Shown: piece by piece, positions 8,917-23,705 of the stretch
Numbering within the stretch: position 1 is the stretch's first letter
How the letters are laid out: each line of letters begins with the position of its first letter
Virus record (IMG/VR): IMGVR_UViG_3300042400_001427
Coordinates: 1-24,826 of that record
Direction: 5' to 3' (one strand)
Length of the DNA: 24,826 nucleotides
Source of the DNA: a virus
Made by a program: the position numbers and the translations under genes
Notes under the pieces: model-generated
What the model saw: only the letters and a program-made list of their open reading frames with translations
What the model was told of the DNA's origin: nothing
Database searches by the model: none

Positions 8917-9757
8917 TCCTTTAACTTTTTGTATTAGTACATACAATAATTTAGAGTATTTAAAATTAGCTGTTGAATCTGTTAGAAAAAACAGCTTTTA
9001 TAAAAATGCTCCTTTTATTGTATATGCTGAAAATTGTAACGATGGAACTGATGAATGGCTAAATGATGCCAAAGACCAGTATAATCTTGAATGTTATGTA
9101 GAAAAAAATAATATTCCTAAAGGTATTGGTGGAGGAATGAATTTATGTGCTGATAAAGTAAAAACAAAATACATAATGTTTTTACACAGTGATTTTTATG
9201 TAGGTCATTTTTGGGATTTAGCTTGTATTGAAGAATTGGAAAAACACAGTATTCCTACTTGGGTATTCAGTCATAGAATAGAACCAGACATGTTTGGAAA
9301 TGGATCAAGTAGACCAGGAACAATTATTGTTCCTAAAGATACTTTTGGCGCTTATTACCACGATTTAGACAAAGAAACTTTAGAAGATTGGATAGATAGT
9401 TTCACCAGTCAAAATAACTTTACTATTCCAAAAGCTGAAGGTGTAAGTGGACTAATTAAAAAAGCAGATTGGGATAAAATAGGGGGAAATGATTCACAAT
9501 TTTCCCCTACATCTTGGGAAGACATGGATTTGTTTTTAAGAATGAAACAAGAAGGTTATCAATTCATTTTAACAAGTAAATCTATGGTTTGGCATTTTGG
9601 AGCTAGAGGATCACACAGATTAGAAGAAAATGGAAATAAGTCATCTCAAAGGCAAGTTATTGCTGAAAGAGACAATGCCATGAAATTTTACAATAAGTGG
9701 GGTGGAATGCCACTATTTGATGAGTATGGTATGATTAAATCAATTTCAAATGGATAA
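8903..9757 (+). CDS. GT2-family glycosyltransferase
   Basis: A 284-residue GT-A enzyme. FCISTYNNLEYLKLAVESV (9-27) is the GT2 start, followed by ENCNDGT (43-49), an H-S-D motif at 95-97 in the DxD position, and SWEDMD with the catalytic-base-like E-D. The C-terminus, MVWHFGARGSHR and later FYNKWGG, has a counterpart in the gene at 14289, so the two appear to be paralogs. They flank the block of sugar-modifying genes 9750-14287. It overlaps its neighbours by 14 and 8 bases. Confidence 0.85.
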   Translation: MAQSSPLTFCISTYNNLEYLKLAVESVRKNSFYKNAPFIVYAENCNDGTDEWLNDAKDQYNLECYVEKNNIPKGIGGGMNLCADKVKTKYIMFLHSDFYVGHFWDLACIEELEKHSIPTWVFSHRIEPDMFGNGSSRPGTIIVPKDTFGAYYHDLDKETLEDWIDSFTSQNNFTIPKAEGVSGLIKKADWDKIGGNDSQFSPTSWEDMDLFLRMKQEGYQFILTSKSMVWHFGARGSHRLEENGNKSSQRQVIAERDNAMKFYNKWGGMPLFDEYGMIKSISNG

Positions 9758-10562
9758 TAAATACAAACATAAAATAATTTTATTATGTAAATCGTTTAAT
9801 GGTGATTTAGAAAGAGCAAATGTTCTTTTTGAAAGTATTAAAAAACATAATAAAGACAATATTCCTTTTTACTTTCAAATTCCAAAGTCAGACTTAAAAT
9901 TATTTCAAGATAAGATGGGAACTGATGGGTATGAAGTAGTATTTGATGAAGATTTAACAGACTTAGTAAATACCCAATCTCATTTTACTCAACAGCTTTA
10001 TAAAATGGAATTTTATAAAACAAATATTGCTGAGTATTATTTTACCATAGATTCAGATATGTATTTTATTAGAGATTTTTACTCAACTGAATTCATTAAT
10101 GAAAATGGGATACCATATGTTACAATGCATGAAAATAAAGCATTAAGAGAATATTCTTACAATATTAAAGGAAACAATATTATAAATGAATGGTGGGTTG
10201 GAGAAAGAAATAAAATTCCTGAATTATTTAGCCGTAAAGGGAAATTATATGATTATTCATGTTCAGCAATTTTGTACATTTCAGAAGTTTTTGAAACGTT
10301 GTATAAAGAATATTGTGAACCAAATAAACTTACTTTTTTAGATTTATTAAAGTTTCAAAGTTCTGAAAATACATGGTATGGTGAATGGATACTTTATAAA
10401 GAATTTAAGTTTTATCCTTGTGAACCTATGTTTAAAACGTTTCATTATCCATTTCAATATCAACTATCAAAACAATTGGGACATACAGAAGAAATGTTAA
10501 GTCAAGTTTATTTAGGAATTACAATGCAGTCAAATTGGGGATCACCTTTAAAATATGAATAA
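9750..10562 (+). CDS. Glycosyltransferase-like protein (DUF6492 type)
   Basis: A 270-residue protein with a GT-A-like layout. HKIILLCKSFNGDLERANVL (7-26) is a nucleotide-binding type start, and YFTIDSDMYF (97-106) has a DxD motif, D101-S-D103. The pattern is that of the DUF6492 group often found in polysaccharide clusters. No membrane segment. It is the first gene of a tightly overlapping run (8-14 base overlaps) through 13588. Donor and acceptor are unknown. Confidence 0.72.
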   Translation: MDNKYKHKIILLCKSFNGDLERANVLFESIKKHNKDNIPFYFQIPKSDLKLFQDKMGTDGYEVVFDEDLTDLVNTQSHFTQQLYKMEFYKTNIAEYYFTIDSDMYFIRDFYSTEFINENGIPYVTMHENKALREYSYNIKGNNIINEWWVGERNKIPELFSRKGKLYDYSCSAILYISEVFETLYKEYCEPNKLTFLDLLKFQSSENTWYGEWILYKEFKFYPCEPMFKTFHYPFQYQLSKQLGHTEEMLSQVYLGITMQSNWGSPLKYE

Positions 10563-11190
10563 TATGCAACTACATTTACACCAATCACCCGATCATATTA
10601 GTGATACTATACGATCTGGTAAATTTTATGAATATTTGATATTTCTTCAATTTGAACCAAATATTCCAAAATATGGAACATTTTTAGATATTGGAGCAAA
10701 TATAGGAAACCATTCAATGATGTTTAGAGAACATTTTAATAACAAAATAATTTCATTTGAAGGTAATCCATTAAATTATGTGTTACTATATAAAAATACA
10801 ACACAATTAGTAGACATTAAAAGTATATGTGTTGGATTAAGTAATAAATCAGGATTAACTGAATTTTGTTATGATTTTGAAAATTTTGGAGGTGGTGGTA
10901 TTTTTCCTCATCTTGAAAATAAATTTAGCACCATACCAGTATATTTAACTACGTTAGATAGTTTTAAGTTTGATGATATAAGTTTTATAAAAATGGATGT
11001 GGAAAATCACGAAATGCAAGTAATTGAAGGAGCTTTAAATACTATTAAAATAAATAAACCTACTATTTGGATTGAAGATTTTTTCTATAATATTGATAAA
11101 ACAAAATCACCTACTGAGTATCTTATTAATGAATTGAATTATAAATTAATTGACCAAAATGAAAGTAATTTTTTATTAAAATATGAATAA
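10555..11190 (+). CDS. FkbM-family methyltransferase
   Basis: A 211-residue SAM-dependent methyltransferase. Motif I FLDIGANIGNHS (43-54) binds SAM; IISFEGNP (65-72) is the acidic loop that holds the SAM ribose; IKMDVENHEMQVIEGA (145-160) is the FkbM signature, usually DVEGhE, here with N for G. The family O-methylates sugars and other small molecules, so methylation of a glycan or a nucleotide sugar is the likely role here. It overlaps its neighbours by 8 bases on each side. Confidence 0.85.
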   Translation: MNNMQLHLHQSPDHISDTIRSGKFYEYLIFLQFEPNIPKYGTFLDIGANIGNHSMMFREHFNNKIISFEGNPLNYVLLYKNTTQLVDIKSICVGLSNKSGLTEFCYDFENFGGGGIFPHLENKFSTIPVYLTTLDSFKFDDISFIKMDVENHEMQVIEGALNTIKINKPTIWIEDFFYNIDKTKSPTEYLINELNYKLIDQNESNFLLKYE

Positions 11191-11797
11191 TAAAATTCAC
11201 CCCACTGCTATTATTGAATCTAATGTAAAAATAGGTTCAAACAACTATATAGGACCTTTCTGTTATATAACAGGAGATACTATTATTGGAGATAATAATC
11301 GTTTTGAGGCGTATTGTTCAATAGGAACATCTGCTGAACATAGAGATTATTTCAACACTACAGATGGTAAAACAGTAATAGGAAACAATAATGTTTTAAG
11401 AGAATTTACAACAGTTAATGCCGGAACAAAATCCCCTACAATCCTTCATAATAATATTGTTATGTTAAGAAATAGTCATGTTGGTCATGATAGTATAGTA
11501 GAAGACTTAGTAAATTTATCTTGTAATACTTTAATTGGTGGTCATTCTTATTTAATGACAGGATGTAATTTTGGGTTAGGAAGTATATGTCACCAGTTTA
11601 GTGTTATTGGTGCATTTTCAATGATTGGAATGGGAAGTATTATTACTAAGTCTTCTAAAATCATCCCAGGAAATGTTTATGTTGGATCACCAGTTAAATT
11701 ATTAAAACAAAATATTGTTGGTTTAGAAAGAAATAATATAGATGAATCAAAATTAAATAAATTAATAGAAAAATATAATACGTTATGCCAGAAATAG
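11183..11797 (+). CDS. LpxA-like hexapeptide acyltransferase
   Basis: A 204-residue left-handed beta-helix protein with hexapeptide repeats from residue 6 to 160. It matches LpxA features: SHVGHDSIVED with H102 at the catalytic-His position, CHQFSVIGA (136-144), and a C-terminal start VGLERN (179-184) corresponding to the EGLKRRG helix of LpxA. LpxA is about 260 residues, so the C-terminal helical domain is cut to one helix or so. LpxA acylates UDP-GlcNAc or, in some bacteria, UDP-GlcNAc3N. With an aminotransferase and a MocA-type oxidoreductase next to it, N- or O-acylation of an amino sugar is likely. Relatives such as WbpD/WlbB use acetyl-CoA, which remains an alternative. Confidence 0.83.
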   Translation: MNNKIHPTAIIESNVKIGSNNYIGPFCYITGDTIIGDNNRFEAYCSIGTSAEHRDYFNTTDGKTVIGNNNVLREFTTVNAGTKSPTILHNNIVMLRNSHVGHDSIVEDLVNLSCNTLIGGHSYLMTGCNFGLGSICHQFSVIGAFSMIGMGSIITKSSKIIPGNVYVGSPVKLLKQNIVGLERNNIDESKLNKLIEKYNTLCQK

Positions 11798-12594
11798 TAA
11801 GAAGTATTTTTGAAGGTTATGTAAAAGAAACCTTTAATTTAGAAGACTGCATTGCAGTAAACAACGGAACAAGTGCTTTAATAGCACCTTTATGGTCAAT
11901 GAATTTACAACATGGTGATGAGGTAATAACAACTCCATTTACGTTTATTGCTACGTCAAATGCAATTATTATTGCAGGAGGAACACCAGTTTTTGTTGAC
12001 ATTGATCCAACAACTCTACTGATTGATGTAAATAAAATTGAACAAGCCATAACTTCAAAAACAAAAGCAATTATGCCTGTTCATTTATATGGAAGAATTT
12101 GTGAAATGGATAAAATAAATGAAATTGCTAAAAAACATAATTTAATAGTAATTGAAGACACAAGCCAATCATTTGGAGCGCAAAACCAAGAAAACCAATA
12201 TGCAGGAATGATGAGTGATTGCGGAACATTTAGTTTTTACAAAACAAAAAACATTTCAACATTTGAAGGTGGAATGATTTGTATTCCGAAAAATTCAAAA
12301 TTAGATGCAAAGAAAATTAGAAGTATTTGTAATCAAGGACAAGATGGTAGATACAACCACGTTCATATTGGGTTTAATTTTAGATTAGCCGAACCATTGT
12401 GTTTAATGGCCTATGAACAAATGAAGTTACATATGACTGGAATAAAAGCAGAATTAGGATTAAGAGGTCCAAACCAAGGTCATTATCCAAACGTAGTATA
12501 TGACCAACCAGCATATATTGAAAAAGGAATTACAGGTAACTGCCCTATTGCAGAAGAAATAGCAAGAAAAATTAAAAACAATGAAACAGTATAA
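11785..12594 (+). CDS. DegT/DnrJ/EryC1 sugar aminotransferase, shortened
   Basis: A 269-residue PLP enzyme of the sugar aminotransferase family. VNNGTSAL (25-32) is the phosphate-binding turn, VIEDTSQSFGA (122-132) holds the PLP pyridine, and K155 in FSFYKTKN is the Schiff-base lysine position. Family members are about 365-390 residues. This one lacks the first ~25 residues, appears to skip ~80-100 residues after QMKLHMTG (212-218), resumes with GHYPNVVYDQPAY (232-244), and ends early. An in-frame stop lies just upstream of the ATG, so no longer start exists. It may be a compact active enzyme or a decaying one. It overlaps lpxA-like by 13 bases and the oxidoreductase gene by 14. Confidence 0.83.
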   Translation: MPEIVRSIFEGYVKETFNLEDCIAVNNGTSALIAPLWSMNLQHGDEVITTPFTFIATSNAIIIAGGTPVFVDIDPTTLLIDVNKIEQAITSKTKAIMPVHLYGRICEMDKINEIAKKHNLIVIEDTSQSFGAQNQENQYAGMMSDCGTFSFYKTKNISTFEGGMICIPKNSKLDAKKIRSICNQGQDGRYNHVHIGFNFRLAEPLCLMAYEQMKLHMTGIKAELGLRGPNQGHYPNVVYDQPAYIEKGITGNCPIAEEIARKIKNNETV

Positions 12595-13588
12595 AGTAGG
12601 TATTGTTGGGTGTGGAGTAATTTTACCCAGACATTTAGAAGCAATTGAAGCAAATAGTAACTTTGAATTAGTTGCTGTTTGTGATATTCAAAAAGATTTA
12701 GTAAAGAGTATAGCTAAAAAATTAAAAGTTAAAGCATATACTGATTTTGAAGAAATGATTTTAAGTAAAACAGTTGATTTTGTAACTATAGCAACCCCCA
12801 ATTCACTCCATTATGATCAAGCACTATTTGCACTAAATAATAAATGTGATGTACTAGTAGAAAAACCAGTTGCTTTTACTAAAGAAGAAATAGAAGATAT
12901 CATTAAAGTAGCTAACGATAACAATCAAAATGCTTACTGTGTTTTACAAGTAAGATTAAATCCAACAGTTCAATTATTAAAAGAAGTTTTAAAAGAAAAC
13001 TTACTAGGAGACATTAGAGGTGTTAATTTTATTCAAAGATGGCAAAGACCATTAGAATATTTTACAGGATGGAGAGCTGAACCTAATATTGGTGGTGGAA
13101 CCTTATATGAATGTGGAATTCATTATTTAGATGTATTACAATATGTTTTTGGAAAACCAGAAGTTGTTGGGAGTAAAACATATGAAGTAAAACATAATGT
13201 AGGAATTGAAGACACAATATATGCTATTTTCGATTTTGGTAATTATGGTGGTACTTGTGAAGTAACAATAGCCTCAGAACCTAAAAATTTAGAGTGTTCA
13301 ATAAGTATTTTAGGATCAAACGGATACATTAAATTAGGAGGTAAGGCATTAAATATAATTGAATCAGCAGATTTTTTATCTCATGGATCTCAAATAAAAT
13401 TTGGAGATTTAGAAAAATCTTATTATATTAATACTGAACCAAATAGTTATGGATCTTATCAAGGATCATGTCCAAACCATCCATTTGTTTACTCAAACTT
13501 AAATGAATTTAAAATGGAACAAACTAAAAATGTAATTTTATTAATAGATGAAATTTATCAAAAATCAAACATCCAATATAGAAAATAA
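12581..13588 (+). CDS. Gfo/Idh/MocA oxidoreductase (WlbA/GnnA-like)
   Basis: A 335-residue NAD(P)-dependent oxidoreductase of normal length. The Rossmann motif is VGIVGCGVILPRH (6-18), the family signature is E94-K95-P96, and the substrate domain carries R-x-N-P (133-137), WQRPLEYFTGWR and GGGTLYECGIHYLD. The last two stretches are characteristic of enzymes that oxidise C3 of UDP-HexNAc or UDP-HexNAcA, such as WlbA/WbpB and GnnA. It would make the 3-keto sugar used by the aminotransferase encoded just upstream. UDP-GlcNAc is inferred as a substrate, not shown. Confidence 0.85.
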   Translation: MKQYKVGIVGCGVILPRHLEAIEANSNFELVAVCDIQKDLVKSIAKKLKVKAYTDFEEMILSKTVDFVTIATPNSLHYDQALFALNNKCDVLVEKPVAFTKEEIEDIIKVANDNNQNAYCVLQVRLNPTVQLLKEVLKENLLGDIRGVNFIQRWQRPLEYFTGWRAEPNIGGGTLYECGIHYLDVLQYVFGKPEVVGSKTYEVKHNVGIEDTIYAIFDFGNYGGTCEVTIASEPKNLECSISILGSNGYIKLGGKALNIIESADFLSHGSQIKFGDLEKSYYINTEPNSYGSYQGSCPNHPFVYSNLNEFKMEQTKNVILLIDEIYQKSNIQYRK

Positions 13589-13591
13589 ACT

Positions 13592-14287
13592 ATGAATATT
13601 GATCTTAAAGGAACAAAAATAGTAGAAATTCCATTCATGTTAGAACAACTAGATGGAGACACATCAAAAAGTATTCTTATTATTGGAGAATGTAAAGGTG
13701 GAACAGAAGGTATTAGTGAAAGTTTATTAGAATTAGGTTATAACAATGTAACTACAACAGACATTTTACCTACCGAACCAGACAGTTGGTTAAGACAAAA
13801 TACTGATTGGAAACACATTCAAGCTGATTTTATTGAATTTGATGAAACAATAAAATATGATTACGTTATCAGCATTTCAGTATTTGAACATTTTGGATTT
13901 TGGTTTGCTGGAGACAGAATGTTTGATGGAAAGTTTGCTGAAGATGTTATTAGGTGGAATCACGATATTGTAGGAATAAAAAAAGCAGCTAATTTGTTAA
14001 AAGACAAAAACAGTAAATTAATCATTACTTTACCTGCTGGTCCATATATGAATTATGAAAAAAACGGTTACCCATTTTTAAGAGGTTATGATTGGAATCG
14101 ACAACAATTAATTAAAACAATTATGAATGAAAAAGACTATTCATTAAATAATGAAAAATTCTATTATTCTGAAGATTTTATAAATTGGGATGAAGTAGAC
14201 CGTAAATTTAACCACCCTGATTATTATGGGTATTACAACTCAATAACTCCAAATGTGATTTGGGGACTAACAATCCAACAACAATAA
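13592..14287 (+). CDS. Methyltransferase-like protein
   Basis: A 231-residue protein with a Rossmann-like layout. SILIIGECKGGTEG (27-40) sits where a class I methyltransferase has its SAM loop, TTTDILP gives the acidic strand-2 site, and YDYVISISVFEHFG (89-102) resembles motif IV and the following helix. The SAM loop is unusual (E-C-K-G-G), so SAM binding is likely but not certain. It starts 3 bases after the oxidoreductase stop and ends 1 base before the next gene. Sugar methylation would fit its place in the island. Confidence 0.65.
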   Translation: MNIDLKGTKIVEIPFMLEQLDGDTSKSILIIGECKGGTEGISESLLELGYNNVTTTDILPTEPDSWLRQNTDWKHIQADFIEFDETIKYDYVISISVFEHFGFWFAGDRMFDGKFAEDVIRWNHDIVGIKKAANLLKDKNSKLIITLPAGPYMNYEKNGYPFLRGYDWNRQQLIKTIMNEKDYSLNNEKFYYSEDFINWDEVDRKFNHPDYYGYYNSITPNVIWGLTIQQQ

Positions 14288-14288
14288 T

Positions 14289-20168: not shown

Positions 20169-21074
20169 ATGAATAAAAATTATGGTTATGCTTGCATTAA
20201 TGAAACACTCAAAAAAGAAGGTGTTACAACAAATAGAAGTCTAAAGAAAGCAACTTTAGATAAAAAAGGTTTAGACTATTGTAGTGAACTTGCTGTTCAA
20301 AACATTAGAGACCTAGAAAAGTACTTACATTGGAATTTAGAAAATGATATTCTTGTGTTTCGAATGTCATCAAACATGATTCCATGGGGAAATAAAGTTG
20401 ATTGGTTTAGTTTTAAAGATTTTAGTGAAATTAAAGACGTTTTAGCTCGTTGTGGTGAATTTGCTACAAAACACGGAATGAGACTTACAATGCATCCTGG
20501 TCAATATTGTATTCTTACTAGTCCACACCAACATGTTATTGACAATAGTGTAAGTGACTTACAAATGCACAGTGATATTATGGATTTGATGGGATTGAGT
20601 CGAACACATTACAACAAAATCAACATACATATGGGTGCAACGTATGGTGATAAAGAATCAGCTATTAAAACATTTCTAAAGAATTTCAACAAACTACCAG
20701 ATGCAATTAAAAGTAGACTCACTATCGAAAACGACGACAAAGGAAATATGTACTCAACTAAAGAACTATTCGAAGGAATACATAAAAATGCGAACATACC
20801 AATCGTATTCGACTACCACCATCATAAGTTTTGTACAGGGGGTCAATCCGAAGAAGAAGCCCTTCGGTTGGCAGTATCAACGTGGGGTAACATTAAACCC
20901 ATTGTTCACTATAGTGAATCTAAAGCCCTAAATGAAAGTTTAAAAGTTAAAATGCAAGCACACAGTGATTATTATTTAAACAAAGTTGAAACTTACGGTT
21001 TAGATTTAGACATCATGATGGAATGTAAAGCAAAAGAGCTAGCTGTCATGAAATACAAAAAAGATTTTTTGTAA
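20169..21074 (+). CDS. uvsE: UV damage endonuclease (UvsE/UVDE)
   Basis: A 301-residue TIM-barrel repair nuclease of the normal UVDE length. Typical stretches are FRMSSNMIPW (64-73), MHPGQYC, NIHMGATYGDK, TIENDD, VFDYHHHKFC and HYSES with a later AHSDYY, which supply the His, Asp and Glu ligands of the three-metal site. The enzyme nicks DNA 5' to pyrimidine dimers and starts an alternative excision repair route. With the ligase nearby it gives the phage its own repair of UV damage. It starts at AGTTATG. A 48-base AT-rich gap follows. Confidence 0.93.
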   Translation: MNKNYGYACINETLKKEGVTTNRSLKKATLDKKGLDYCSELAVQNIRDLEKYLHWNLENDILVFRMSSNMIPWGNKVDWFSFKDFSEIKDVLARCGEFATKHGMRLTMHPGQYCILTSPHQHVIDNSVSDLQMHSDIMDLMGLSRTHYNKINIHMGATYGDKESAIKTFLKNFNKLPDAIKSRLTIENDDKGNMYSTKELFEGIHKNANIPIVFDYHHHKFCTGGQSEEEALRLAVSTWGNIKPIVHYSESKALNESLKVKMQAHSDYYLNKVETYGLDLDIMMECKAKELAVMKYKKDFL

Positions 21075-21122: not shown

Positions 21123-21617
21123 ATGAAGAGGAAAAATATTCACACATTCGACAGTGAGTCAATTCAAACACTTAAAACAATGATTTTGAGTAGTGACAAG
21201 TCAGCCAATAAAATGGGAATTCAAATGTTAAAAAATGCAAACTTAAACGATGAAGAAACGTTGAATCAACTTCAATTGTTTAGTCAAGTAAACATTATGG
21301 ATTGGTATGAAATGGACGCTGAAACAATGAAAAGTGTTTTAGATGTGTTTGTTGACTTAGAAAATAGAGGCTTCTTAGTTAAAGAACATAAAGTTGAGTT
21401 GAGTAAAACACTAGACGGCAATGACATTGTAAATTGGATGGATGTGCAAATTGCAGCTAAAATTGAAAAACAATTTATTGCTCGTAAAGTATTGGCTGAA
21501 GAATGGCTAAATGACAATTGTACCGACGAACGAAAAGAAGTTATTGAAATTAAGATCCATAAAATCAATCAATATGTAGCTGATTTGTTGGGCATTGAAT
21601 ATCAAATGAATGACTAA
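21123..21617 (+). CDS. Unknown helical protein
   Basis: A 164-residue protein, acidic and mostly helical by composition, with no membrane segment or known motif. Segments such as SIQTLKTMILSSDKSANKMG and ETMKSVLDVFVDLENRGFLV suggest packed amphipathic helices. It begins at GGTTATG after a promoter-like motif and overlaps the next gene by 8 bases. I do not recognise the family. Confidence 0.78.
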   Translation: MKRKNIHTFDSESIQTLKTMILSSDKSANKMGIQMLKNANLNDEETLNQLQLFSQVNIMDWYEMDAETMKSVLDVFVDLENRGFLVKEHKVELSKTLDGNDIVNWMDVQIAAKIEKQFIARKVLAEEWLNDNCTDERKEVIEIKIHKINQYVADLLGIEYQMND

Positions 21618-21921
21618 AAAGAGATATTGGACTCAGTTTGGTTATACTCCACAAGAAGCATTTGGTAGTTGGGTCGTCAAGAAAAGAAAAATAACAGCTC
21701 CATGGAGTAGCCAAACTAAGTACTACATGGAAGACATTGTAGAATGTAGCTCATTGTTTTTAGTAGATCATAGTATATTTTGGGGTACAAAAAAGCTTAA
21801 ATGTACATTGTTTGTTGGCTCATCTAGGTATATTAAACCTAACATGGCACTAAAACATTATTTAGGATATTATTTTGATCATGAAATTCAAGACAAAGAA
21901 ACAACAGCTATTGGAGATTAA
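21610..21921 (+). CDS. Unknown small protein next to the micro-gene array
   Basis: A 103-residue basic, aromatic-rich protein (W, Y and F spread throughout), unlike the acidic protein upstream. The middle, KYYMEDIVECSSLFLVDHSI, and FWGTKKLKC suggest a small beta-containing fold with two cysteines. No family is recognised. It ends two bases before the first micro-gene, and its aromatic character recalls those genes, but I see no convincing alignment. Confidence 0.72.
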   Translation: MTKKRYWTQFGYTPQEAFGSWVVKKRKITAPWSSQTKYYMEDIVECSSLFLVDHSIFWGTKKLKCTLFVGSSRYIKPNMALKHYLGYYFDHEIQDKETTAIGD

Positions 21922-21922
21922 A

Positions 21923-22000
21923 ATGATGAGATGGTCACTTTATTTTATTGGTGATTCAATAAGAATAGTAAATTGGATGACAGCAAATAAAACACCATGA
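21923..22000 (+). CDS. Micro-gene A (25 aa)
   Basis: A 25-residue frame, MMRWSLYF to NKTP, that starts 1 base after the previous stop. It is aromatic and contains R-W and V-N-W-M, but lacks the WLYD end of the genes that follow. Its stop overlaps the next start (ATGA). It may be a cut-down member of the array or a leader peptide. Support is only position and coupling. Confidence 0.4.
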   Translation: MMRWSLYFIGDSIRIVNWMTANKTP

Positions 22001-22146
22001 AATCACTAAAAAAACCATCTAGCATATTAGGTTATAATAATTGGAATGGTGTAGGAAGTTATTCTATGTGGGATTTTGTTCGTGAATTCAGTTATGAGGA
22101 GGAAGAGGACCCTTATTGGGATTTAAGAGAATGGTTATATGATTAA
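21997..22146 (+). CDS. Micro-gene B (49 aa), WLYD family
   Basis: A 49-residue protein. After a basic start it has LGYNNWNGVGSYSMWDF, an acidic run (EEEEDPYW), and ends LREWLYD. The Y-x-x-W-N-G...Y-x-M...F core and the WLYD end recur in the neighbours. The codons for the end, TGG TTA TAT GAT TAA, contain the ATG of micro-gene C in another frame. Coupling on both sides and shared protein pattern support it as a real gene. The function is unknown. Confidence 0.68.
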   Translation: MKSLKKPSSILGYNNWNGVGSYSMWDFVREFSYEEEEDPYWDLREWLYD

Positions 22147-22291
22147 TGTTAGAAAAGATCAATTAGAAGAATACTCAAGATGGAATCTTAAAGGTTATGG
22201 TTATGACATACCCAACACAATTATTTCATTTAGCGTTATTGCACCTGTAGATTGGATTGATTTATATGATTGGTTATATGAAATATATTAA
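22139..22291 (+). CDS. Micro-gene C (50 aa), WLYD family
   Basis: A 50-residue protein: MINVRKDQLEEYSRWNLKG, then a hydrophobic middle (NTIISFSVIAPVDW) and the end DLYDWLYEIY. It shares Y-x-x-W-N and W-L-Y with B and E. Its start lies inside the last codons of B (8-base overlap), and D starts inside its own WLYE codons (14-base overlap). Its first residues resemble those of the 18-residue frame at 22550. Confidence 0.66.
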   Translation: MINVRKDQLEEYSRWNLKGYGYDIPNTIISFSVIAPVDWIDLYDWLYEIY

Positions 22292-22436
22292 AATTGATAT
22301 TGATAAAATAAGACTTTACACTAGTTGGGATTCTTCAGTTAGTTGGGGTTGGGGGATGATATCAACAATTAAAATATTTAAAACAGGTTACAACGATAAA
22401 AAAACTCAAGCTATTCATAGATGGTTATATGATTAA
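22278..22436 (+). CDS. Micro-gene D (52 aa), WLYD family
   Basis: A 52-residue protein: MKYIKIDIDKIRLYTSWDSS, then SWGWGMISTIKIFKTGY and the end AIHRWLYD. The core has Y-x-x-W-D in place of Y-x-x-W-N, and M-x-x-x-x-x-I-F where B and E have M-x-x-F. The terminal codons again hold the ATG of the next gene (8-base overlap). The function is unknown. Confidence 0.66.
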   Translation: MKYIKIDIDKIRLYTSWDSSVSWGWGMISTIKIFKTGYNDKKTQAIHRWLYD

Positions 22437-22560
22437 AAAAATTATTACATACAGAAATTGGAATGGTACATATTATATCTATGATATGAGTCATTTTATT
22501 TTTGCATTTAAAGAAAACAGACCTAATTGGAAAATAAAAGTATGGTTATATGATGAATGA
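22429..22560 (+). CDS. Micro-gene E (43 aa), WLYD family
   Basis: A 43-residue protein, the clearest short form of the family: ITYRNWNGTYYIYDMSHF, then IFAFKENRPNWK and the end VWLYDE. It aligns with micro-gene G at Y-x-x-W-N, Y-x-x-x-M, F-x-x-x-F, N-W and W-L. It begins within the last codons of D and ends overlapping F by 11 bases. Confidence 0.68.
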   Translation: MIKKIITYRNWNGTYYIYDMSHFIFAFKENRPNWKIKVWLYDE

Positions 22561-22606
22561 GTTAAGAATAAGTGATTTAGAAGAATATGAAAAGTTACAT
22601 GTATAG
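22550..22606 (+). CDS. Micro-gene F (18 aa), truncated copy or leader
   Basis: An 18-residue frame, MMNELRISDLEEYEKLHV, beginning in the WLYD codons of E. It resembles the first residues of C (MINVRKDQLEEYSRW), with L-E-E-Y in common, and then stops where the family core would begin. Micro-gene G starts inside it in another frame. It is probably the remnant of a duplicated C-like gene, or a short coupling frame. Confidence 0.35.
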   Translation: MMNELRISDLEEYEKLHV

Positions 22607-22724
22607 TTATGTAAAGTGGAATAAAGGTCAAATATATGGATTTTACATGAAAAGTTTTACTTATGTCTTTAATAAAAAAGAACAAAATGATAATTGGACT
22701 TTATATACGTGGCTTTTTACTTAA
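22587..22724 (+). CDS. Micro-gene G (45 aa), WL[FY] family
   Basis: A 45-residue protein: SYVKWNKGQIYGFYMKSFTY, then VFNKKEQNDNWTLY and the end TWLFT. It is the last of the array. No gene starts inside its final codons, and there the sequence is TGG CTT TTT ACT TAA, quite unlike TGGTTATATGA; yet W-L-aromatic is kept. This argues that the C-terminus is conserved as protein and not only as a start signal for the next gene. Confidence 0.65.
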   Translation: MKSYMYSYVKWNKGQIYGFYMKSFTYVFNKKEQNDNWTLYTWLFT

Positions 22725-22729
22725 ATTTT

Positions 22730-22882
22730 ATGAAACTAAATTTATATAGCATATTATTAATTCTTATATTTATAATTACTGTATCAATAACAAATAAAAC
22801 AATTAAAAATCAATATGAAAAAACAACTAATGATTCTTCTTTTCACCCTATCGACAGTATTGGGTTTGAACGCAAAATGTGA
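22730..22882 (+). CDS. Possible 50-aa membrane peptide overlapping the secreted protein gene
   Basis: An ATG at 22730 opens a 50-residue frame whose first 20 residues are strongly hydrophobic (LNLYSILLILIFIITVSI), a likely membrane segment. The last 68 bases overlap the signal peptide region of the next gene in a different frame, so residues after about 28 may be incidental. It starts 5 bases after micro-gene G. It could be a real small membrane protein or the cut-down start of one. Confidence 0.4.
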   Translation: MKLNLYSILLILIFIITVSITNKTIKNQYEKTTNDSSFHPIDSIGFERKM

Positions 22883-23705
22883 TTGGAGCACACTAAAACT
22901 CCAGCAATGGAATGAACGTAACTACTACAAGTGGCAAGTAAGTGGTGTTGGGATCGGTGATGACACTTGTGTTAGTTACCAAATGTCTATTTATAATTTC
23001 CAAACAGGAAAATCTCAAGTTCTTAAAGGTGGAAAAGATACTGGTGTTGGGTTTGAGTATTATCTTTATGAAAGGAATGGATTTGTGGAAGTATTATTTA
23101 ATACTAGAGGTAAATACAAATTGTATGTAAAAGTATTAAATAAATGTAATAAATGTGATACAGCACTTTATAGTATGGTAGAACTAATCCAATTCCCAGG
23201 TGCCGGGTTAGGATGGGTTGTGAATCAAATTAATTGTAAAAAATATAAGTTTGAAATGAACTATATTAAAGGTATGTCAGTAAAAGACACTTGTATGGAA
23301 TATTACATGGTATTCTACAAAGGGCCTTGGATGGATACAATGTCTCAAAAGGAATGGGATAACCTAACTGATTACCAAATTGGTATGGAATATGATTTTC
23401 CTGACGCAGACTTTTTAGGATATACTCAAACACGACTTGCTGAATTTACATTTAAAGACAGTGGACGTGTGTTGATGTATGCTCAGTGGTGGAATAAATG
23501 CTTGAGACAAGATACATTTATGTTCAGACGCTTGGATGTTTGTAAATCAAAACCTACATCAAATGTAGCTGTATTGACTCGTCCTGAACCTAAATTGGTT
23601 GCAATGTATGACATGATGGGTAGACCAGTAAACTATGTTCGTGAAAATGAAATTATGATTTATGTGTACAGTGATGGTTCAACTAAGAAAATAATTAAAA
23701 AATAA
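22815..23705 (+). CDS. Secreted two-domain protein with T9SS-like C-terminal domain
   Basis: A 296-residue exported protein. Residues 1-20 are a Sec signal peptide (MKKQLMILLFTLSTVLGLNA), with likely cleavage before K21-C22. Two similar ~110-residue units follow, each with D-T-C...Y-x-M near the start and W/V-x-N-K-C...D-T near the end; cysteines 22, 52, 111, 114 and 141, 160, 229, 243 may pair. They look like Ig/PKD-type beta domains. The last 40 residues (LVAMYDMMGRPVN to IYVYSDGSTKKIIKK) resemble the type IX secretion C-terminal sorting domain of Bacteroidota. Such a domain would send the protein through the host outer membrane. The gene differs from the cytosolic genes around it; adhesin or receptor-blocking roles are guesses. 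Confidence 0.82.
   Translation: MKKQLMILLFTLSTVLGLNAKCDWSTLKLQQWNERNYYKWQVSGVGIGDDTCVSYQMSIYNFQTGKSQVLKGGKDTGVGFEYYLYERNGFVEVLFNTRGKYKLYVKVLNKCNKCDTALYSMVELIQFPGAGLGWVVNQINCKKYKFEMNYIKGMSVKDTCMEYYMVFYKGPWMDTMSQKEWDNLTDYQIGMEYDFPDADFLGYTQTRLAEFTFKDSGRVLMYAQWWNKCLRQDTFMFRRLDVCKSKPTSNVAVLTRPEPKLVAMYDMMGRPVNYVRENEIMIYVYSDGSTKKIIKK

Follow-up and report, generated by a model that had tools for sequence, protein, structure and literature searches.

A row of seven short overlapping reading frames (A to G) in the virus record IMGVR_UViG_3300042400_001427 includes five diverged members of one family of small proteins, for which no described relative was found. The whole record of 24,826 bases was analysed and is called the window here; its G+C content is 30.5%, and feature coordinates are window positions. 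The row lies on the + strand between open reading frames (ORFs) of 103 and 296 amino acids (aa). It may represent a translationally coupled, lineage-specific array of paralogues with unit-by-unit turnover, probably coding for diversified host-interaction proteins that serve counter-defence or takeover. Taken as a whole, this reading of the sequences has a probability of about 0.45.

A first-pass annotation made from the DNA letters had described seven frames of 18–52 residues with overlaps of 4–20 bases, and both coordinates and number were confirmed. A (21923–22000) encodes 25 aa, MMRWSLYFIGDSIRIVNWMTANKTP. It is the conserved first ORF of the array and not a recognisable family member: the pattern of B–G is missing, although A is kept in a related phage. 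The family units are B (21997–22146, 49 aa, YNNWN ... REWLYD), C (22139–22291, 50 aa, YSRWN ... YDWLYEIY), D (22278–22436, 52 aa from the ATG at 22278, YTSWD ... HRWLYD), E (22429–22560, 43 aa, YRNWN ... KVWLYDE) and, as the last one, G (22587–22724, 45 aa, YVKWN ... YTWLFT). F (22550–22606) is an ORF of 18 aa. Successive overlaps from A to G are 4, 8, 14, 8, 11 and 20 nucleotides (nt). The proposed aromatic pattern held in its outer parts, with Y-x-x-W-[ND] present in B, C, D, E and G and W-L-[YF] at the C-terminal end of the same five. M-x-x-F had been called frequent and is limited to three units, B, E and G.

The array exceeds chance expectation. In 1000 dinucleotide shuffles of positions 21901–22740, the total ORF content averaged 36 aa and always stayed below the 246 aa observed; a chain of four ORFs was not obtained once (0/1000). 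W[LF][YF] is located within the last eight residues of all five family units, compared with one of 1772 other ORFs of two relatives. Leave-one-out profiles, built from four unit positions, recovered the fifth with E values of 1.7e-5 to 1.9e-12 and at the top rank over all unrelated ORFs. These profiles identify B, C, D, E and G as one homologous family and bear out the earlier view of a true tandem family of diverged micro-genes. Over ten sequences, only Y13, W16, F31 and W46 are invariant and L47 is nearly so; all invariant positions are aromatic or hydrophobic.

The C-terminal signature has two origins. In the tails of B, C, D and E, the ATG of the next gene sits in TAT-GA (TGG TTA TAT GAT TAA), and the acidic residue after the tyrosine is mostly imposed by this overlapping ATG. 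The tail of G is WLFT; its last residue is not acidic, and no family gene follows. Tryptophan and leucine lie outside the overlap and are yet kept, and are therefore a protein-level feature. The first-pass annotation had treated WLYD as one shared end. Its W-L-[YF] part stands as a protein-level signature, whereas the final D or E is largely overlap-imposed and G lacks it.

Coding is supported by a 176-kb viral contig (G001, locus L001). Its array agrees with that of the window both in the order of the units (A, B, C, D, an E-like unit, G) and in the neighbouring genes. The homologue of A, MLRWAVYEDGCAVYSVNWITDKKRF, is found at the same place (L001, 6798), with 50 of 78 nt identical and without an indel. 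Orthologues of window and L001 are 76% (B), 49% (C), 61% (D) and 73% (G) identical. E shares only 40% with the E of L001; it is a family member without a clear orthologue pair, and the E position has for this reason been interpreted as turned over between the two phages. Seven of the eight array indels are multiples of three. The eighth, of 1 nt at 22573, is inside F. As this is the sole frame-breaking indel of the array and the N-terminus of F resembles L001 E' (MNSFRIMDMREY), F is probably the N-terminal remnant of a decayed E-like unit. The aligned array units contain no stops; in a neutral simulation at 15%–25% divergence, about 10–15 stops were expected and stop-free runs did not occur (0/5000). 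Homologues with conserved frames in a related phage, which the first-pass annotation had called for, thus exist.

The suspected diversifying selection did not find support. The ratio of nonsynonymous to synonymous substitution rates (dN/dS), pooled over B, C, D and G, is 0.74; the bootstrap range of the corresponding ratio of differences per site (pN/pS) is 0.51–1.32. Window neighbours have values of 0.06 (UvdE), 0.15 (296-aa ORF), 0.25 (164-aa ORF) and 0.48 (103-aa ORF). The units of a separate array shared by the relatives G005 and G006, the one that differs by a single unit between them (see below), have a dN/dS of 0.73 (0.48–1.12), compared with 0.11–0.22 in five neighbours. The dN/dS of the units is above that of most neighbours and not significantly different from 1, which is weak constraint and not positive selection. 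A separate observation concerns synonymous divergence from G001 (pS), which is lower in B, D and G (0.08–0.27) than in flanking genes (0.37–0.56). Recent exchange or an extra constraint at the DNA level may be the cause.

Arrays of this kind are more widespread than the first-pass annotation had seen. A second array in G001, with five units, lies at a distance of 6.5 kb (L096 11580–12318, − strand), directly after a gene for a BCS1/CDC48-like AAA ATPase; the window ends before the corresponding place. Its ends include WLFV, WLFL and KGYFF. The family profile matched its unit l2e with E values of 2.5e-5 to 2.8e-3 and l2c with 0.006–0.04, and in the reverse search profiles of the second array matched the units of the window and L001 at 5e-4 to 5e-3. 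By these matches the second array belongs to the family of B–E and G, with a weaker case for l2a and l2b.

Two further relatives, G005 (180 kb) and G006 (a 42-kb fragment), were found through UvdE. Between homologues of the same flanks, at the equivalent site, they encode other micro-gene arrays, with the ends LDYYEL and LDL[DE]. G005 has an array with LDL[DE]xL ends and one of about ten units, the last several of which end in YYEL; an equivalent of the latter is present in G006. A row of 58–75-aa ORFs with LDL[DE]xL C-termini was located before the 164-aa ORF homologue at L016 9427–10958 and L017 7804–8204. The longest such row found is at the contig end of G005, with 17 consecutive ORFs of 36–59 aa (L094 23–2359, − strand). 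Most of its overlaps are exactly 4 nt and most units end in YLDL, YLDI or similar. The usual ATGA overlap requires a last codon ending in A, which would fit the final leucine or isoleucine. No further such arrays were detected when the rest of G001 and G005 was scanned in the same way.

Internal homology is strong by profile in the YYEL group (leave-one-out E values of 3.4e-7 or better) and weak in the YLDL and LDL[DE] groups. The C-terminal signatures of these latter two are not due to chance: LDL or LDI is present in 12 of 15 YLDL units and in 14 of 1765 other ORFs, and [LMFI]DL[DE] in 9/9 units of the LDL[DE] group, with three occurrences among other ORFs. Comparisons of the WLYD family with the arrays of G005 and G006 gave hhalign p values of 0.009 and 0.27, and the profiles cross-match weakly. 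A shared ancestry of the WLYD with the YLDL and YYEL arrays is suggestive at best.

Relatives differ in array composition, and for one pair the difference is precisely a single unit. At one place G005 has two adjacent units and G006 has one. The difference of 149 nt corresponds to one unit period including the 4-nt overlap, and the ATGA junction is kept. Both G005 units at that place have the N-terminal stretch ATGACTAGAGA...ATGTTAAGAATA in common. This is the outcome expected of recombination between neighbouring units, and the change may have gone in either direction. The comparison of copy number across relatives, proposed in the first-pass annotation, thus revealed differences down to a single unit.

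That annotation knew of no described phage family of this form, and the searches agree. The units had no significant match in profile searches of Pfam, NCBIfam and the PDB. None of the PHROGs was convincing; the best, PHROG 24286, matched G only (E value 0.0066) and was not common to the other units. The anti-phage defence models of PADLOC did not match any unit. No relatives were present in sequenced phages according to blastn and tblastn, the latter over 50,697 phage records, and none was described in the literature, for which open papers were searched. Degenerate tandem patterns were used for viral contigs: the YLDL type matched only G005, and matches of the WLYD type besides G001 were all free of arrays on scanning. 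In bacterial genomes, the WLYD-type pattern gave no array among the matches listed, and the 164-aa flank ORF had no relative. The family is exclusive to a few related uncultured phages. AlphaFold2 modelled C, for the WLYD family, as three short helices at low confidence (pLDDT 59.5); the prediction for the YYEL family, one long helix with a pLDDT of 68.8, was likewise too poor for use. Foldseek found no match among viral models.

In the favoured explanation, the locus would be a polycistronic series of tandem paralogues of a small phage protein of 43–52 aa. The units may be translated from one mRNA by termination and reinitiation at the stop/start overlaps of neighbours, which span 4–20 nt in the window and, in the 17-unit array, mostly 4 nt. 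Translational coupling classically takes the form of 4-nt and 1-nt overlaps (PMC6728339, PMC10666635). Each unit would form a small, probably helical domain with a conserved aromatic core (Y, W, F and the C-terminal W-L-[YF]) and a surface free to vary. The array could lengthen and shorten by recombination between adjacent units, with subsequent divergence of the copies. A phage precedent is T4 tifA, a counter-defence gene that was amplified in tandem (PMC9391042). The least certain step is the role of the products as counter-defence or host takeover proteins, whose differing surfaces might meet different or changing host targets. The units are small, narrowly distributed and subject to turnover, with raised dN/dS, a variable remainder around a conserved core and a non-structural setting; host interaction is the best fit to this combination.

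Several observations weigh against this explanation. No unit resembles a known defence or anti-defence protein in profile searches. With dN/dS no higher than 1, positive selection is unproven, and the values would suit relaxed constraint as well. Genes throughout these phages commonly have short overlaps, and coupling is therefore no peculiarity of the arrays. Between window and G001, B, C, D and G have remained stably orthologous, so turnover is slow there. The fold of the WLYD family is a guess owing to the low AlphaFold2 confidence.

The chief rival is a hetero-oligomeric complex, a ring, sheath or cofactor scaffold, with the units as its subunits. Duplication would have been followed by subfunctionalisation and the overlaps would hold the stoichiometry. 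Short overlaps link the translation of the genes involved and promote hetero-complexes (PMC6728339, PMC10666635), order and orthology of B, C, D and G are kept between window and G001, and the common hydrophobic pattern could be an assembly interface. A fixed complex should however show stronger purifying selection than a dN/dS of 0.7. Unit number varies among the relatives, and some relatives have same-site arrays without detectable homology to WLYD; the explanation is considered unlikely. Slightly less likely still is an array under weak constraint, in which recombination yields small paralogues that decay at little fitness cost. The dN/dS of about 0.7 with confidence limits that include 1, the decayed appearance of F and the narrow phyletic range agree with it. 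Such decay is difficult to reconcile with stop-free frames and in-frame indels (7/8) over 15%–30% nucleotide divergence, with 17 intact tandem units in G005, with the same kind of array kept in four phages and with the usual deletion of useless DNA from phage genomes.

The nearby AAA ATPase of 373–383 aa offers a further explanation: the units might be its small adaptors or partners and dock by the C-terminal tail. Each array has its own C-terminal signature, the ATPase gene of G001 runs into the second array and that of G005 directly follows the YYEL array. Against this stand the WLYD array, which lies several genes away from the ATPase in window and G001, and the YYEL array of G006, which has no such gene at the site or in the 42-kb fragment. 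A related ATPase of Pseudomonas phage PAC2, the one checked, has no annotated array beside it. An adaptor role is improbable, and because of G006 and PAC2 the link between ATPase and arrays is only a lead. Far less credible is a single repeat polyprotein with its pieces joined by programmed frameshifts. Every junction is indeed a short overlap with a frame change, but the needed shift varies from junction to junction, also inside a single array: overlaps of 4, 16 and 28 nt require one frame, those of 8, 11, 14 and 23 nt the other. The units also keep their own ATG, and a common slippery sequence was not noticed. The polyprotein was rejected on account of these different shifts. An equally slight chance is given to cis-acting leader ORFs that regulate the downstream gene of a secreted protein through their overlaps. 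The array and the 296-aa gene share a strand, the array comes first and the interval between the two lacks a terminator-like site. Residue conservation is nevertheless at the protein level, the 17-unit array of G005 is at another site and the second array of G001 precedes unrelated genes.

The setting of the array is non-structural, with UvdE, a sigma-like factor, a clamp loader and glycosyltransferases. The UV-damage endonuclease UvdE is encoded at 20169–21074 (Pfam E value 7.7e-64) and had 337 matching loci in viral contigs. It is followed on the + strand by the 164-aa ORF (21123–21617), a homologue of which precedes the arrays in all four phages. Its counterpart in G005 and G006 is a pair of successive ORFs, 91 and 81 aa long (L016 11012–11534, L017 8256–8778): a split or fused gene. 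The 103-aa ORF (21610–21921, + strand) is without a family match and has 55% identity in L001. Downstream, the 296-aa ORF (22815–23705, + strand) has a signal-peptide-like start and a similar counterpart behind the arrays of L001, G005 and G006. An assignment to Shiga toxin B was rejected as chance: the matches cover the signal-peptide region only and are far below the curated cut-off. A small hydrophobic ORF is located after G (22733–22882, MKLNLYSILLILIFIITVSI...). The interval 22725–22815 is identical to the relative in 84 of 91 nt, yet the next gene is diverged. Further upstream, positions 9738–14288, part of a cluster for glycosyltransferases and sugar modification, had no blastn match in the fetched G001 sequence, and both sides match at about 91%–92%. 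This segment appears from the alignment to be a variable glycan module.

Annotation readily misses or miscalls overlapping genes as short as these (about 45 codons), and searches with single sequences cannot see a family of such low sequence identity. Should the units prove to be diversified host-interaction proteins, the arrays would offer ready access to small counter-defence proteins and would document, in nature, the diversification of a phage scaffold through duplication. More speculative, and rather doubtful, is the idea of dedicated loci in which a small helical scaffold with a fixed aromatic core, diversified on its surface in rows of up to 17 overlapping genes, would constitute a genomic library of small binders. 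The stop–start overlap would make the units modules that recombination adds or removes without breaking expression. Different arrays at the same site in related phages make the question of function testable by a comparison of infections.

Large virulent phages carry accessory clusters of small genes for host takeover and anti-defence. Like the arrays, these consist of short, lineage-specific, fast-changing ORFs of unassigned function in one transcription direction. The accessory clusters mostly mix unrelated genes, whereas the arrays contain recognisable paralogues with one signature per array. The AAA ATPase next to arrays in G001 and G005 is a homologue of the BCS1/CDC48-like ATPase of jumbo phages (PHROG 14322; Pseudomonas phage PA5oct group); PAC2, with the same ATPase as PA5oct, has no micro-gene array annotated beside it. 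T4 tifA shares with the arrays tandem small-gene copies that arise by recombination, and it counters a defence system (PMC9391042). Its copies are recent and stem from experimental evolution, whereas the array copies are old, strongly diverged and separate overlapping genes; a defence target is known for tifA only. Coupled overlapping gene pairs have the same 4-nt and 1-nt overlaps, with coupling expected (PMC6728339, PMC10666635). The described examples usually involve two different genes, whereas the arrays run up to 17 genes in series.
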